Assembly: GCA_000611775.1 (NCBI GenBank) | Contig: KK106987.1 | Location: 124,001-188,000, forward strand | DNA length: 64,000 nucleotides | Origin: Umbilicaria muhlenbergii | Taxonomy: Eukaryota > Ascomycota > Lecanoromycetes > Umbilicariales > Umbilicariaceae | Direction of reading: 5' to 3' | Shown: positions 15,942-26,783 of the stretch, one piece after another | How positions within the stretch are numbered: the first letter of the stretch is position 1 | Layout: each line of letters begins with the position of its first letter | Program-made: the position numbers and the translations under genes | Notes under the pieces: model-generated | Told to the model about the DNA's origin: nothing | The model's input: the letters and a program-made list of their open reading frames with translations, nothing else | The model's database searches: none

Positions 15942-17822
15942 ATGTCCGGTGTCGAGGCTGTGGCTGGCTTGGTGCTTGGAGTCCTTCCTCTCCTCATCTC
16001 CGCTGCCGAACACTACAACGACTGTTTTCATGCATTCCAGCGCTATCGCAAATTGACATCGGAGGTCAAGGAGTTTGGGCAGCAGTTCAAAATTCAAAAA
16101 ACGATTTTTCGCAATCAATGCCGTCTCTTTCTCGAAGATGCCATCGAGCACGACGTTGCGACGAAAATGCTCGACGAAAAGGATCACCTTTATTGGCACG
16201 ACTCCAATGTGGAGGCCGAGCTTGTGGAGCAGCTGGGCGGGTCAAGGGACGCCTGTGTCGCTGTTATTAAATGCCTCATGCAAAGGCTTGAAGACATTGG
16301 CAAGGAGAGTCAACATCTAGAAGATATAGTCAATCAAAACCAAGAGGTGACCATTATATGTATATTCCTAGTCCTTCAATCACAATGGCTAACGTCACTT
16401 TGCATTTCGCAGACCGAGACCGAACGTATCGGGGGCAAAACCTGGAGACATCGAGTAGGGACCAAGCTGCGAACCTGCCTGTCAAAGGCCCGCTTCGACG
16501 ATCATATATCTGCATTGAGGGTGCTCAATGACGACTTCAGAAACCTGTCAGGGCAGACTCGGAACCTAGCTAAACGCAGAGCTCCGACACAATCAACTCG
16601 CGACATTGAAAGGTTCCGGGACATCCAAGAAGCGTCACGGCAAGTTTACGATGCTCTGGGCAAGGCGTGTACGAAACATACAGAACACTTTGCACATTTC
16701 TGTATCGAAGCAAAGCATGTCAGCTCATGCGAGACATCAGCGCCGCAAGTGAAGTTCAGCATGGCACTGACGCACTTGACGTTGACTGGTTCGTCGACAC
16801 AAGGGGACCCGCTATGGTTTGTGATTGAGTCCATCATCGGTAATGCCACAGCAAGCGGCAGCGGAAAGCTGGGACCGCAGCTATGTAACCTTGCGCAGTC
16901 ACTAAAAAGACAGCTTGATGCACCACCCAATAACGCCACAAAGAAGGTAAAAAAGACCGTGAGATTCCAATCACCAGCGCCTACCGAGGGGCCGAGCATA
17001 CAGTTTGTGGCACCTATCAACGAAGCAACTACAAGCGCTCGTATGCGGAGAGACCTTTGCGACCATTTACGCAGCTGTTTAAGAGAGCACGCAAAAGCGA
17101 ATGAGTGTCTTGGGGCCCTTGATGCTACGGGGACATGCAAGCATCTCCTCTATACTCCATCGTCGACAGCTCTACCTGGCAAGCCAGAGGCTGTTTCACT
17201 TGGCAAAGTGATCTCATCCTTTGCAAAGAAAGGGTCAATGAGCGGCCTCCCTCAATACGAGCGTTTACGTCTCGCCAAGTCACTGGCAACTGCTGTGTTG
17301 CAATATCATGCCACCCCTTGGCTCAAAACGTCGTGGCGAAGCGACGATATTTTCTTCTTCGGCATGGGTGAAGACGTGGCCTTAGAACGAACGTCGATCC
17401 TCTCTAAACCACATCTAAACGTCAGGGTCAAAGGACCTAACGGACAACTTTCTCGATCCTCTACATTTCCACAACCAAGCCTCATATCCAATCCGATACT
17501 CTTTGGCTTGGGCATAGTTCTTCTTGAAATAGCGTACTCTTCTACTTTACGAAGTTTACAGCAGCCAGGCGACTTGGAGGGCGGTCAAGAAACCAGATAT
17601 ACCGAGTTCTTCACGGCTAAGCGTCTTGTGAGTTCTATAGGTAGGGAAATGGGGTCCACCTATGGTACCATTGTGAAGAAGTGTCTCCAGTGTGATTTTG
17701 GATGTGGAGACGATCTGAACAACCCCAAATTACAGGCAGGTTTCTATCGAGATGTGGTTTGCGAGTTGGATGTGTTGGAGAAGAAGTTTCGTGCAATACA
17801 GCTAGGAGATGCCAATGGATAG
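15942..17822 (+). CDS. DUF7580-type fungal protein
   Basis: Two exons, 15942-16346 and 16413-17822, give 604 residues. The 66-nt intron (donor GTGACC, branch GGCTAAC, acceptor TTTCGCAG) keeps frame and lacks a stop, so it could be missed or retained. The N-terminus SGVEAVAGLVLGVLPLLISA is the hydrophobic helix that opens many Pezizomycotina proteins of this type, some of which carry helical signalling domains involved in non-self responses. The C-terminal third (RLAKSLATAVLQYHATPWLK, NPILFGLGIVLLEIAYSS) matches the DUF7580 region, which looks like a degenerate kinase C-lobe without catalytic motifs. Function is unknown; a role in allorecognition or stress is only an inference from family company. 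Confidence 0.8.
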   Translation: MSGVEAVAGLVLGVLPLLISAAEHYNDCFHAFQRYRKLTSEVKEFGQQFKIQKTIFRNQCRLFLEDAIEHDVATKMLDEKDHLYWHDSNVEAELVEQLGGSRDACVAVIKCLMQRLEDIGKESQHLEDIVNQNQEVTIICIFLVLQSQWLTSLCISQTETERIGGKTWRHRVGTKLRTCLSKARFDDHISALRVLNDDFRNLSGQTRNLAKRRAPTQSTRDIERFRDIQEASRQVYDALGKACTKHTEHFAHFCIEAKHVSSCETSAPQVKFSMALTHLTLTGSSTQGDPLWFVIESIIGNATASGSGKLGPQLCNLAQSLKRQLDAPPNNATKKVKKTVRFQSPAPTEGPSIQFVAPINEATTSARMRRDLCDHLRSCLREHAKANECLGALDATGTCKHLLYTPSSTALPGKPEAVSLGKVISSFAKKGSMSGLPQYERLRLAKSLATAVLQYHATPWLKTSWRSDDIFFFGMGEDVALERTSILSKPHLNVRVKGPNGQLSRSSTFPQPSLISNPILFGLGIVLLEIAYSSTLRSLQQPGDLEGGQETRYTEFFTAKRLVSSIGREMGSTYGTIVKKCLQCDFGCGDDLNNPKLQAGFYRDVVCELDVLEKKFRAIQLGDANG

Positions 17823-18535: not shown

Positions 18536-20812
18536 ATGTCCGACAATGTCCTCCTAAAAGCTCTCCCGCCCGCCGTTGACTATCTAGCCTACCTCACGAT
18601 CCTTGAATACAACCTTACGAGCGATCAACTACCCGTCCTTCACGACGTCCTCCAAGATACGACCTTGACGACGAACATTGGCTGGGATCTCGTCCACTTA
18701 CTCCTCCCACTCCTACCCGCGTCGAAAGAATGTCTTCAGGATGTCGCGCGGTTGGGGAATCCTCGAGAAGTGGTGTTGAAGACTACGGAGTTGTTGGAGA
18801 GTCTTGGTTCAGAGGATGATGATGAGGAGGACGAGGACGAGGACGAGGACAGCGAGGCTGAGGAGGAAGGTGATGCACTGGGTAGAGAGGATATAGGAGG
18901 TTCAGACACGTATGCACGAGATACAGCAGACGCAAGGGCGCCAGAGCAAGACCTCCAAGATGTCCATACCTATCCAGAGCAAGACAACAAGGCCGGGGAA
19001 CCAACATTGCCAGCTACAGCACCAGAGCACCCTGACCCTACCAATACGAAAGACAACCCTTCAGCCCCCCTCTCCAGCTACTCCCGCTACATCCAAGAAT
19101 TCACCACTCTGATCGACATGCTCTCCGTCCTCCACCCGCGCATCAAAACCAAATATCCCAGCCGCTTCCTCGCCACAACCCTCCAAGCCATCCTCCGCGC
19201 CTACTCGCGCCTCGCCCGCGCCCCCGAAGCCACATCCGCCGTCCTAAAATTCCTGCGCGTCATGTCCGGCATGTACAGGCCCGTACTCCCGCCTCGTCAA
19301 TCCACCGGCTCGCTTTCCCGCTTACCGGCTCCGGACCCAGAGGCGCAGAAGGAGGACGTTTCGGCCGGGGAGACAGCGCTGCAGACGCGGCTTTTGCAGT
19401 CTTTCCTGACGCATGTGTTGGAAGACTGGATGAATAGTTTGAGGCCGGTAGATGATGTGCCGGGGATGGCGTGGGCGAGTCGGTTCAGTGAGATGAGGGG
19501 GTTGGATAGGGCGATTCCGGGGAGGAAGCTGTTTAATCAAAGGTTTGAAGAAGAGCCGGAACTGGTTTCTCGGACTGCGACTATTAATCAGATTAATGTA
19601 AGTTGTTTGACTTTGTACGCTGGAAGTCTGCTGACAAGTTAGGGTCTCGCGCGGCACCTAAAGATCGACCACGAGGAACTACTCAAGATTGTCACATCCC
19701 CCGAAAGCGACAGTCCCCCCACCTCTCCATCCTCCGACCTCCCCTCCCAAGCTTCCGACGTGCCCCTCTCCCCCATCGGCTGCCTCTACCTCTACTGCGC
19801 CTCCGCTTTCTCCAGTATCACGACCACCACCACCTCACTACCCCCAATCTCCACCTTCCCCACTCACGCCCACCTCCTCTCCAAATACCTCTCCCCCTCA
19901 GCCCCCACCCCCACAGAACCCCTCCTCGACACCATACTTTTCCTCGGACTTTCCGCCCTCTTTACCAACCCCACCATCCCCACCATCCCCACCACCGATG
20001 AAACCACCTTCCACACCCACCTCCGCACCCTCTCCCTCCTCGCCGCCACTTCCCCCTCCCCCACCCTCCGCTCCCACGCCCACACCCTAGTATCGCGCCT
20101 CCTGCACGCACACCCCTCCCCTCGGGTACGTCTCGCTTTAATCCGCGATACGCTGCAGTATTGTCCGTACGAGAACCTGAGGGCTTGCGCAGTGGGGTGG
20201 GTTAAGACGGAGATCCTCGCGGCCAACGCAGCTGCTTCACCGGTATCGAAGCCGATACAGAAGCTGAGGGGTGTCGCTGGCGCATCGACTCGAACCTCGA
20301 GGGGAGCAGACGAAGACGAAAAGGAGGACGAAGAAGAGGACGAGGATAATGAGGAAGCACAAAACCCATTCACAACCCCCATCGGCATGGTCGTACTAGC
20401 ACCCCACCTCTTCGCCGACCCCCGGGGTCTATGGTCGCACCTCCCTACTCCCACTCCCCCTACTCTCACTCCTCCCACCACCACCACAGAAAAATTCACC
20501 ATCTGGCAACCCCACACCCCATTCTTCCTCGCAGTCCTAAACCTATGGTATCTCCTCTGCACCTCACCTATATTGCGTGAGCGGCTAGATGTCAGGACTG
20601 GGGCGGGTCAGTGGGGCCTCGCGGGGTTTGTGAGGGGCCTGACCGGGGGGAGTGAGACGCTTAGGAGGGGTATAGACGAGGGCGATGAAGAGGCGAAGGC
20701 GATGTTGGGATTGTTGGAGGGGACGGTGGAGATGGTGGTGGAGGGGATGAGGGGGGTGGGGATGGAGGTTGGGTTGGTGGAGGAGGGAATGGGGGAGAGG
20801 GAGAGGGGGTGA
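18536..20812 (+). CDS. YAP-binding / Ybp2 (ALF4/Glomulin-like) family protein
   Basis: Two exons, 18536-19597 and 19643-20812, joined over a 45-nt intron (GTAAGT...CTGAC...GTTAG), give 743 residues. The start MSDNVLLKALPPAVDYLAYL, the helical repeat-like body and the length fit fungal YAP1-binding/kinetochore Ybp2 proteins; relatives help Yap1 sense peroxide or bind kinetochores. Two strongly acidic linkers are visible, residues about 85-120 (runs of Asp/Glu) and about 590-610. Codon use in exon 2 is extremely C-rich on the third position, giving long proline-like shadows in other frames. The stop at 20812 is followed directly by purine-rich sequence. Confidence 0.8.
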
Positions 20813-21815: not shown

Positions 21816-22009
21816 TTACATGACGGTACAGCCGTAGCCGGGTTGGCCTGTTGATGCGCACGGGGTCGTTAGCTGATGGGGTTCTTTTGAGGGGGAAGAG
21901 AGGGGAGAAGGGAAAGGAAAGTGGGAAGAGGAAGGATGAACGTACCCTGGTTTTGGGTCTGGGGGACCTCGCTGGGAGCGGCGTTGGAAGTGGTGGTGGT
22001 TGGAGACAT
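21816..22009 (-). CDS. 31-residue CaaX peptide, candidate a-factor-like pheromone precursor
   Basis: Two exons, 22009-21946 and 21847-21816, flank a 98-nt intron (donor GTACGT, acceptor ATCAACAG). The product begins MSPTTTTSN, continues with EVPQTQNQ and ends GYGCTVM before TAA. The final CTVM fits the CaaX box for farnesylation, proteolysis and carboxymethylation. Tiny size, Ser/Thr/Pro-rich leader and C-terminal CaaX are the features of ascomycete lipopeptide mating pheromone precursors such as Neurospora mfa-1. Such peptides would be exported by a Ste6-type transporter and sensed by a Ste3-type receptor. The CaaX only appears after splicing, so simple ORF searches miss it. A second, untranslated intron may lie upstream (acceptor-like CCCAG near 22049). 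Alternative: another short prenylated protein. Confidence 0.7.
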
Positions 22010-22382
22010 GGTGGTTGTGGTTTGGTTTGGTTGGGAGTCTGAAGACCTGGGGGGGGGGAAGATGGTTAGCTTTTCTTGTCTGTCTGCTGGAAGGTAGAGA
22101 GAGGAGAGGTGGAGGTGGGGATGGGGGAATGAGGAGGAATGAGACGTACTGGTTTGGAAGATTGCTTGTGTGGATGAAAATTGGTTATGGGTGAGGAAGA
22201 GAGTATGGGTTGAGCGAAGATGTGAGCGTATTTATGTCGGGGAGAGAACAATGACTTGGTGCGTAAGTGAGCGGTGGGTATGATCAATGAGGTTGGTTAG
22301 TGGGATGCTTACAGTTCGGATTGTCTGAGATCCGATGAGGTTGGCTTTGTCTGAGGTGACGATGATGACAGTGGACGGAGAG

Positions 22383-22409: not shown

Positions 22410-23337
22410 TCTTGGGGATGAAAGAAGTCGAGGATGCGAGATGGAGATGGAAGGGTTAGAGGACGGAAGTGTGGGCTCTTAAGGTGCTTTCGTGACGATA
22501 GAAGCGATGAAGGCTTTGATGATGTGGACGGTGGTTCTGGGGGTGGCTGGTGATTCGGCTCGTCAATGGACCGATTAGGGTTGGGACGGCAGGATGTCGA
22601 TCAGGTGGACGTGGCTCTCCAAGCGTACAGTTGCTTTGTTCAGTCAAGGTTCCGTCGCACGGTTCAAGAGAAGATGATGGATTGTAACGCCGAGAGATGA
22701 ATTTACATCGGAAATGATTCCGGACCAGTAGGGAAGGCTTGCGAGTCTCTTGGGCTACTACCTCATAGACCACCAGTTCAATTACGTATTGAATCAACGT
22801 TTCACGAAGAAGCGTCAATGTCTGATTAACAGTAAGATGAAACAATGACAAGAGATGAATAGTAAAAGGGTCCATCGCCCCGCTGCGGGGTGGCCACTGA
22901 TCACCACGTCTCTCCCGCGATACACCATTCACCGTCCCCGACTCTGCAGAGCACGCACCGGCAAAAGCAGACTGCATGGGGAGAGAGCGGCAGCGCATCA
23001 GTGGCATAATAGCGCAGAATCATCCATCTGATGCAGACATGCAATCAAAGCCAACAGGAACTCATACACGTGGCGAGAAGAAGTACCCACGGCAGCAGAA
23101 GCTAGAGTAACAGGCTTCGAACAACTGCGCCATTAAACAGCGCATCATCTAAAGCCAAGCACAATTAAAAGGAATCAGAAAGCTAGACTGTTCTGTGACT
23201 GCACCATTGAACAAGACACCGACAGATTCGTCTATCTCGTGAAGCCATTTCCCATATCAGAGCGACTTGACGTTCAAATGCAAAAACACGCTAGTCCGAA
23301 AGCGAGGAAAGCGAGCTTAGTCGACATCATTGTAACC

Positions 23338-23663: not shown

Positions 23664-26600
23664 TCACGTGTACACCTCCTCGGTGAACGCATTCAGCGTC
23701 ACCCCCTCCTTGGCAATATCCTCCTCGATCAAGAACAGTAGCGGCATCTCCACCAGCGTCCCATGAATCGTACTCAACAACTCCTTCACCTCCCTTATAC
23801 CCTGCGGACCCGGGGAGAAATTCTCCGTGACGACATGGCCCCACTGATACTTCGCCGGCTTCTTCTTGTCTCCTTTACCCTCCGCCTCTGCGTCGGCTTC
23901 ACGGAAGAATCTCTCATAGAACGATTCATAGTCTTTCCAATTCCGCACGCTATCGTGCGGGACGGGATGGAATATCTTTCCAAAGGCCTCGGTGTTCTGC
24001 CGCGCTCGGGCGTTCCAAAGGTTGAGGAAAGAATCGGATAGAGGGTCTGCTACGGCGCGGTCTTCGGCAGAGCCAAAGTCGTAGATGTTGGGGACACCAA
24101 TCGGTTCGAAGTTCTGGTCCGGAGCTTCCATGTTCTGGGGAACGACGAGACCCAGGTGCTTGCGGAACAGCTGCCGACGAAGTGTCGCTGCGAATTTCGA
24201 AGCTCGCCAGGGTTGGCCGTTCATGTAGGAATCTACTGGTGTAGGATCTTCGACGATGATGGCAATTTCCGAGTCGTGGTAGCCGAGCTGAGATCTATCG
24301 TTAAGGTTCGCGGAGCCGCAGATGACAATCCGGTCATCCGCTATCAGGACCTGAGATTTTGATTAGCAAGCTATGCGGTAATGGCTGTGTCTCGACACAT
24401 ACCTTCGAATGGATGTACAGCTCCTCGCTCACGAACGCATTGATCTCGTCCACATTACCAACCTCCCATGGGACTTCGCGAATGTCCTTGCCCCCAAGCA
24501 TATAACACTCGCTGACCGTGTCCCAACGACCCGTGCCGAGCCCTTGCCGTCCGTCTATACCAGCAGCCGCTTGTTGATATCGCTTGTAATCGTCTTGGGG
24601 GTTGTACTGGTTGCCATCACCCTTCCCATCACGAGCATGGTATCCAACAGGATCCACCACATTGTCATGTTCTCTACGAGCATCTTCGTAAGTGACGCCG
24701 GATTTCTGCTCGGCCTCCTTCATCGATGCGCTAACGTTGATACGATCGTAGTTTCTCAGGTTGTAGAAACGAATGTACTGAGTAGGGTCGAATCCTTCTT
24801 TGGCAATCATTTCCATGATGCTGTACCCGCCGCGGTTGATGGAATTGTACTGGAACTCCATGATTGCACGTGTGCCCAAACTGGACTCCTCCTTCAAATC
24901 TCCTGCAAAAGCGGGTATAGCGGGCATCATCACGATGACTTTATATTTCTCGCCAGCTCTTGCTGCCCGCAGTATTCGTTCAACGATAGCAGCACCGATC
25001 TTGTTCTTGACCGGCTTCTGTTCGTTCGATGTGGCGGTGATGAAGAATTGGTTCTCGATGTACACAAAATGCTGGCTGTTCTGGATGATCTGGATATAAG
25101 CGTCGGCAATCGAGTGCTGGGTGGGTACTCCATGACTCCACTTTGTACAGCTCCTGACGATCTGGCACGAAATTCCCGCCTCTTGGAAGCTACCATGCAT
25201 ACTGCTGTGATGTTCGTTGCCACTGAGGTACTGGTTCTGCACGTACTCCATACCTTGGGCCAAACGACCACGAATAGCACTAGCCGCGCCGCTCAAGTCA
25301 GACCCTTGTCCACTATACTGTGGCCCGTATGACTGTTGGGTCGAGCCATCGGTGTATGGTATGGTGCCAGCGGCGTTTTGAGTGAATGTAAGTCTCGTGT
25401 ACCGACGGTCTTGACGGACATTGTATTTTTCCTCAAATATAAAGTTCCATCGTTCAACGAAGTGCGCCCTGAGATCCTCAACCGCGGGACCACGTAGGCA
25501 GACGGAGATGTCAGACCATCCCATCCGAGAGCTACTCCGTCGGTCAAGCTTATTCTGGTCAAATTGTGCGACATCATGGAAATCCATGATCCTTGCGTTG
25601 TTGAAGTCCTGCCCAGGAAAGACGATGTTATCAAGGTTGCTAGGATGAGCATCGGCAATAGGATGCTGGTTGTTATCCCAACGGCCATAGCACAAGTCAA
25701 GGCCTCCCATGAAAGCTATTCTGCCATCTATAAGGCACAGCTTCTCGTGGTGAGCCCAGTACAATATCACGTCATCGTTGAAGCCATATATTGCCTTGAG
25801 GGCATCCTGCGGCAATTTCGACACGGTAGCGGCATTCAGAGATAAGTTTTGCAACGATGACAGGAACGATGATTGCAACGTCTGCGCATCGGGAAGGTGA
25901 TCAGGATGCCTGAACACGGATATGTTTGGATGAAGATCTTCCAGTGCATGTTTTGTATGGCTCGAGGACACTGTCAGAGGTAGGGCAATCAGCGGGTTCT
26001 CGGCTTCGACTTGTTCAAGGGACGCAAACGTGGCAGCAAGACCCAGGCCACTGAGTATCGACGTGATAGGATCGGTGTTCCGGGGGAGGAGCGAATGGAG
26101 ATACTTGGGCAGTGTTGGAGACAGGTACTTACGGGTCAAGGCTTGGGTTACTTCTTTATAGACGATGATGTTGACCTTTACGCCTCGTTGAGCGGCCGCC
26201 TGAAGCATACGGTCGATCCGGTATTGCTCATTTCTTGAAGGTGGTCTGCGCAGATATAGTTCAGGAGATAGCCACCCTAGCAAAGCCATTAGTTGTTGGT
26301 CTTACCCTGGAGTACGCCGTGCGACTTACAGTCGAGGATCCAGATCGACTCTCTCGCCTGCTCCAAGGCTCTTGAGACAGCCCACATGTAGCCGCATCCG
26401 TCGACGTACCATTTGATATCATTGCCATTCCTTTCAGCTGCAAAGCTACCATAGCGATGTTCCGAACTGTCGTGGGTGCCGTCCGTGCACTGAGCGCCGG
26501 CATGGGTATGACTGTGGGTTACTCCGCCTCCAGCAACCCGATGCTCAACCTCCGCTCCGAGGTCATGGACTGTTTCGTGGACCTTTTTGAAGATTGACGA

Positions 26601-26783
26601 CACAAGACCGCCAAGCTGCTGGCTACCACCTTGAGATCCATCTGGCCTGGACGATTGACCGCCCACAAACTTCCGGAACGTATCTCCCACGATGCCTCGA
26701 TCGGTTCCCTGATCTTCGCCCTGTGTGTTGCCTTGATAGAACTGCCCATATGCCAACGGGTCGTCTCGCTGGTTTCCGGCCAT
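23664..26783 (-). CDS. Phospholipase D (two HKD motifs)
   Basis: Four exons, 26783-26330, 26276-26133, 25970-24403 and 24350-23664, give 950 residues. Joins restore ILDWWLSPELYLRRPP and HSKVLIADDRIVICGSANLN. Both catalytic HxKx4D motifs are present: H274-K276-D281 (WAHHEKLCLID) and H720-K722-D727. The family hydrolyses phosphatidylcholine to phosphatidic acid and choline at membranes. The second intron (162 nt, GTAAGT...GACAG) is a multiple of three without a stop, so it can be mistaken for coding sequence. The N-terminal 110 residues are Gly/Gln/His-rich and low complexity; PX and PH domains of the Spo14/PLD1 type are not seen, so this is the shorter fungal form. A tail of about 180 residues follows the second HKD domain. 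Confidence 0.92.

Follow-up and report, generated by a model that had tools for sequence, protein, structure and literature searches.

On the minus strand of a 64,000-nt stretch of Umbilicaria muhlenbergii DNA (contig KK106987.1, positions 124,001 to 188,000; hereafter the window), we found a two-exon gene for a 31-residue peptide, MSPTTTTSNAAPSEVPQTQNQGQPGYGCTVM, that is very probably real. Its product is probably the precursor of a farnesylated, a-factor-like lipopeptide mating pheromone, as judged from the predicted peptide and from the receptor encoded in the same genome. The reading frame opens with the ATG at 22009, is interrupted by an intron (21945–21848) that splits the codon for Gly22, and closes with the stop at 21818–21816 (Table 1). 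Re-deriving the model reproduced exactly the coordinates, frame, splice sites and CTVM end proposed in an earlier, sequence-only reading, which had also placed the CaaX box in a nine-codon last exon, as is the case in exon 2 (21847–21816), with its nine full codons and a stop ending at 21816.

Table 1. Features of the 31-residue gene, its surroundings and the receptor gene. Positions are those of the window unless prefixed with a contig.
Feature	Position	Strand	Description
Exon 1	21946..22009	-	64 nt; MSPTTTTSNAAPSEVPQTQNQ + first base of Gly22
Start-codon context, exon 1	22009	-	ACAACCACC ATG TC
Intron	21848..21945	-	98 nt, phase 1; GTACGT donor, GCTAAC branch-like site, AACAG acceptor
Exon 2	21816..21847	-	remainder of Gly22, QPGYGCTVM, stop TAA
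5' leader intron, probable	22047..22149	-	103 nt; GTACGT ... GCTAAC ... CCCAG; predicted from sequence
Modelled leader region	22010..22236	-	begins at TATA-like CATAAATA, -227; predicted start
Two TGAAAC[AG] sites, pheromone-response-element-like	22798..22844	both	weak
Ybp2 (YAP/Alf4/glomulin) family gene	18536..20812	+	convergent neighbour; PF08568 in two ORF pieces
Phospholipase D1-like (PLD) gene	23664..26783	-	upstream, same strand; domains in 24334–26289, outer limits approximate (adjoining ORFs)
DUF7580 protein gene	15942..17822		between C2H2 finger gene and Ybp2
Ste3 receptor	C1:1521996-1522897		two matches over curated cut-off, E 2.1e-59

Splicing is needed for a start codon in this model: read without it, the frame of CTVM is open for 123 codons before the stop and contains no Met. 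Five combinations of donor and acceptor were enumerated, three of which, including the model in Table 1, keep CTVM. They were judged by a strict two-exon rule (GT[AG]NGT donor, CT[AG]A[CT] branch-like site, [CT]AG acceptor, product of 15–100 aa). One alternative that keeps CTVM uses the donor GTCCCC at 21967, which fails this rule; the other uses an acceptor at 21884 (62-nt intron) and gives an in-frame 43-aa isoform, but its AAG end breaks the rule for acceptors. Going upstream from the ATG at 22009, the frame runs 74 codons to the first stop and contains no further ATG.

The region ahead of the start codon was modelled as a leader. The predicted leader intron has the same donor and branch-like sequence as the coding intron, and a 111-nt variant using a later acceptor fits as well. 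When spliced, the modelled leader, counting the TATA-like box, is 124 nt long and contains no ATG. Farther upstream, TGAAACG lies at -795 on the strand of the gene and TGAAACA at -835 on the opposite strand, making two TGAAAC[AG] sites in the 1.64 kb scanned versus 0.36 expected; these elements lend weak support to possible control by the pheromone pathway. The presumed promoter also contains a 183-aa ORF on the minus strand (window 22456–23007) that has no Pfam match and may be spurious or else an unannotated gene. Predicted RNA structure of the unspliced strand was no better than that of shuffles (z 1.11), and a search of the window against Rfam yielded no matches.

To score coding potential, codon usage was trained on 30 long ORFs of the genome (at least 400 codons, taking the longest among overlapping ones). 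The proposed frame scored +3.0, and both remaining frames were negative, at -5.8 and -5.7. Of 5000 base shuffles, 0.98% reached its codon score and 0.06% its synonymous score, and relative to 634 real 30-codon segments, the gene fell at the 52nd and 97th percentiles, respectively. Its codons are unusually often G- or C-ending, with a GC3 of 0.77 versus 0.56 in the training ORFs.

We then asked how often such a gene model would arise by chance. The whole genome (34.8 Mb in 7 contigs, the window being part of one) was scanned for C-[FLIMVSPTA]-[VIM]-M followed by TAA or TAG, giving 78 places versus 54 for the reversed pattern. A broader CxxM pattern matched 162 places versus 125 when reversed; the narrower pattern was used for all counts. 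From each of the 78 places, 500 bases were fetched and screened for small genes. Only the 31-residue gene gave a two-exon model under the strict rule, while single-exon models with an in-frame ATG (12–100 aa) were found at 16 places, in five of which the frame was open across the whole fetched stretch, so that these are probably tails of larger proteins. The more specific ending G[FY]GC-x-[VIM]-M plus stop codon occurs once in the genome, the second match to the pattern reading into TGG. An exon-by-exon tblastn search of the genome for a second copy returned exon 1 of the gene's own locus only, and sequence searches of Pfam, NCBIfam and PDB with the 31-residue peptide gave no match.

Background rates came from the window and 17 of 20 fetched 10-kb loci, three AT-rich or N-containing loci being excluded. 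In this set, which includes real genes, the strict two-exon pattern with a product of 15–60 aa preceded 47 of 7996 TAA/TAG stops (48 of 13,111 in the reversed sequence), or 17 of 7996 if an A at -3 was included, and a strict leader intron lay ahead of 132 of 7578 ATGs. Among 78 places, chance would thus produce 0.46 models with the two-exon frame alone, 0.17 with the A at -3 added and 0.003 with the leader intron added as well, where the factors are multiplied as though independent and codon bias is left out of the last figure. With 0.46 models expected, the two-exon frame by itself is not decisive. What decides the matter is the addition of the A at -3, the leader intron and the codon bias, and the whole set is convincing.

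Several of the other CaaX-type ends deserve mention. Six of the seven other CTVM ends among the 78 places are explained by copies of a dispersed repeat with the common frame tail DSLACTVM-stop (C1:2037374, C2:2356320, C2:3293476, C2:5206258, C3:3522981 and C3:4585512), the other five copies being 81–91% identical to the first over 488–500 bases; a seventh, weaker relative lies at C2:4222496 (78% over 398). At C2:5081925-5082372, three CSVM/CSIM-stop strings occur inside 450 bases, where perfect identity between the fetched stretches reflects only their overlap, and a relative of this stretch is found at C3:4065020 (186 bases, 87%). Lastly, a 55-aa cysteine-rich ORF at C5:1267105-1267604, MCSSTNQ...CIECDGYECCCIPLPCTIM, ends in a CaaX-type CTIM box (C5:1267545), has an A at -3 and gave no match in a Pfam search. 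It is possibly a second small prenylated protein, and its presence counts against the pheromone reading.

The analysis supports CTVM in exon 2 as a predicted CaaX/CPAX prenylation box. Such a C-terminal box is the sole strictly conserved feature of a-factor precursors, which are shorter than 100 aa, according to the accessible part of PMC10569646. In the 31-residue peptide, CTVM is followed directly by TAA. Two features that are common among precursors without being strict are also present: S and T make up seven of the first 15 residues, in keeping with the a-factor-like leader composition noted from the sequence, and GY forms residues 25–26, close to Cys28. No 9-residue stretch averages above 0.08 on the hydropathy scale, the one measure used here, and the peptide thus has no hydrophobic core and no apparent signal peptide. 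The N-terminus is not hydrophobic either, the first 10, 15 and 20 residues averaging -0.58, -0.38 and -0.93 (Kyte–Doolittle). This differs from the hydrophobic N-terminus used as a criterion in a study of Ceratocystidaceae (PMC13037118) and counts against the pheromone reading, although that property is not named among the a-factor features in the accessible part of PMC10569646.

A cognate receptor of the Ste3 type is encoded in the genome (Table 1). In the a-factor route, the precursor is farnesylated, loses its last three residues, is carboxyl-methylated and trimmed at the N-terminus, leaves the cell by a path that needs no signal peptide and is sensed by Ste3. By analogy, farnesyltransferase would modify Cys28, the TVM tripeptide would be removed and the cysteine carboxyl-methylated, and the S/T-rich N-terminal part would be trimmed away. 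The resulting short peptide, ...PGYGC(farnesyl)-OMe, would be exported with no signal peptide to direct it, and the partner's Ste3-type receptor would sense it. The earlier suggestion of a likely lipopeptide mating pheromone stands as far as the gene and its CaaX box are concerned, while the mating role is the best explanation that we can infer from the S/T-rich start, GY, CTVM, Ste3 and the position of this gene as the sole spliced small gene among the 78 CxxM ends.

The genome contains a MAT1-1 alpha-box gene, with an I/LWEQ-domain gene nearby that we take to be SLA2. When the 9.9-kb locus was scanned by motif for a MAT1-2 HMG gene near MAT, a weak test, the alpha-box frame alone was seen. 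A search for an alpha-factor repeat gene with one pattern, WCxxxGQxC, gave five places, none in a frame with repeats, so that a complete pheromone pair would be putative. In heterothallic species, the usual rule is that a-factor is made by MAT1-2 strains and alpha-factor by MAT1-1 strains (PMC6562746). MAT1-2 cells would then be the probable main producers of the pheromone derived from the 31-residue peptide; since this genome carries the MAT1-1 alpha box, the gene would be present without necessarily serving as the strain's own signal.

The a-factor precursors of Sordariomycetes, Neurospora mfa-1 among them, are likewise short, with a single terminal CaaX box, an S/T-rich start and a GY motif. 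Neurospora MFA-1 presumably shares the string VPQT with the 31-residue peptide and ends in GYCVVM, lacking the extra Gly that precedes the Cys here. The score of the alignment to this presumed sequence was reached by 19 of 2000 shuffles. The Hypocreales h-type precursors (HPP1), for which the accessible text of PMC3068285 requires three copies of (L/I)GC(T/S)VM, resemble the present peptide in their GC(T/S)VM ending, here GCTVM; with no (L/I)GC(T/S)VM copies and a single YGCTVM, the peptide was rejected as an h-type precursor.

Outside Sordariomycetes, no a-factor precursors had been identified in filamentous ascomycetes before a study whose accessible part (PMC10569646) describes a putative Leotiomycete family, typified by Botrytis cinerea BCIN_13g03330, with homologues in at least 111 species. 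Its candidates start with an S/T-rich stretch, 87 of them have GY close to the C-terminus, and CTVM is their commonest end. The 31-residue peptide shares all three features, but the family members are 45–64 aa long, exceeding both the 31 residues found here and the 43 obtained even with the alternative acceptor. GCTVM-type strings were also looked for in literature full text, and among the matches listed, all were unrelated.

In Aspergillus, the accessible text of PMC5307856 treats ppgA, preA and preB only, and that of PMC8954384 treats one pheromone gene and two receptors in Penicillium. PMC11787670 cites, with mention of a ppgB homolog, a report by Krappmann et al. (2025, Curr Biol, doi 10.1016/j.cub.2025.03.080) on an a-factor-like pheromone in A. 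fumigatus. This gene of a heterothallic Eurotiales species is presumably of the same kind as ours, and such a report makes the class already known in Eurotiales and the present gene less of a surprise. The fatty acid synthase beta chain encoded in the genome scored 3499.8 bits against 4v58 (Thermomyces lanuginosus, Eurotiales) and 3351.1 bits against 7q5s (Chaetomium thermophilum, Sordariales), by which a placement outside Sordariomycetes, perhaps in Eurotiomycetes, would be likely; a search for 5.8S rRNA gave no match. The domain matches on both sides agree with the flanking Ybp2 and PLD genes named in the sequence-only reading, and in the window a C2H2 finger gene comes second after Ybp2 on the far side. 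In A. fumigatus, the PLD gene is Afu2g16520 and Afu2g16540 encodes a C2H2 finger protein; this parallel is suggestive only. In Botrytis, two published loci of neighbouring number (xyloglucanase BCIN_13g03350, retrotransposon Bcin13g03280) gave no sign of PLD/Ybp2 synteny.

A real short gene could also encode a prenylated peptide that acts as a membrane-anchored or autocrine signal in growth or development instead of mating. The Leotiomycete candidates, with their similar end and composition, are expressed whatever the mating type, leading their authors to doubt a mating role and to weigh such a use (PMC10569646, accessible part), and the link between the 31-residue peptide and mating is indirect. 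Retention of the Ste3 receptor in the genome and the a-factor-like pheromone reported in A. fumigatus (cited in PMC11787670) argue the other way, and we consider a non-mating signal unlikely, if worth keeping in mind.

It is far less probable that the interval separating the PLD and Ybp2 genes is pyrimidine-rich non-coding DNA in which the frame arose by chance. Both introns and their flanks are rich in C and T, which favours acceptor-like sites, and about 0.46 strict two-exon models are expected among the 78 sites; adding the leader intron, the lack of ATGs in the leader and the start context lowers this to about 0.003 if independent, with codon bias on top, and the figure takes no account of GY and the S/T-rich start, which match as well. 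Alternatively, the two exons might form the tail of some larger protein that is prenylated, a G-protein gamma subunit for instance. G-gamma proteins do end in a CaaX box, but the genome's own G-gamma match is on C3 (1575441-1575542; its 25.1 bits fall slightly short of the curated cut-off, 27.1). There, 300 bases beyond the match, a frame ends in GGCCAVM. Together with the lack of an in-frame ATG between 22009 and the stop 74 codons upstream, and of any Pfam (G-gamma domain included) or NCBIfam match to the peptide, this makes a tail exon the most improbable of the readings considered. The leader intron, codon bias and GY–CTVM end are fitted less well by every one of these alternatives than by a pheromone precursor.

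Tentatively, the 31-residue gene might belong to one ancient a-factor lineage that Eurotiomycetes, Leotiomycetes and Sordariomycetes have in common, marked by an S/T-rich leader, a VPQT-like element, GY and C-T/V-V-M, retained whichever mating type a strain has and perhaps autocrine outside mating. If so, the small intron ahead of a last exon of nine codons would be part of the reason for which such genes went unannotated for so long. Outside Sordariomycetes, a-factor genes were for long the part of the pheromone system that was missing (PMC10569646, accessible part). The nine-codon last exon and leader intron suggest a search rule for other genomes, and the exact splice-site model makes the a-factor half of the pheromone system testable in Umbilicaria muhlenbergii.
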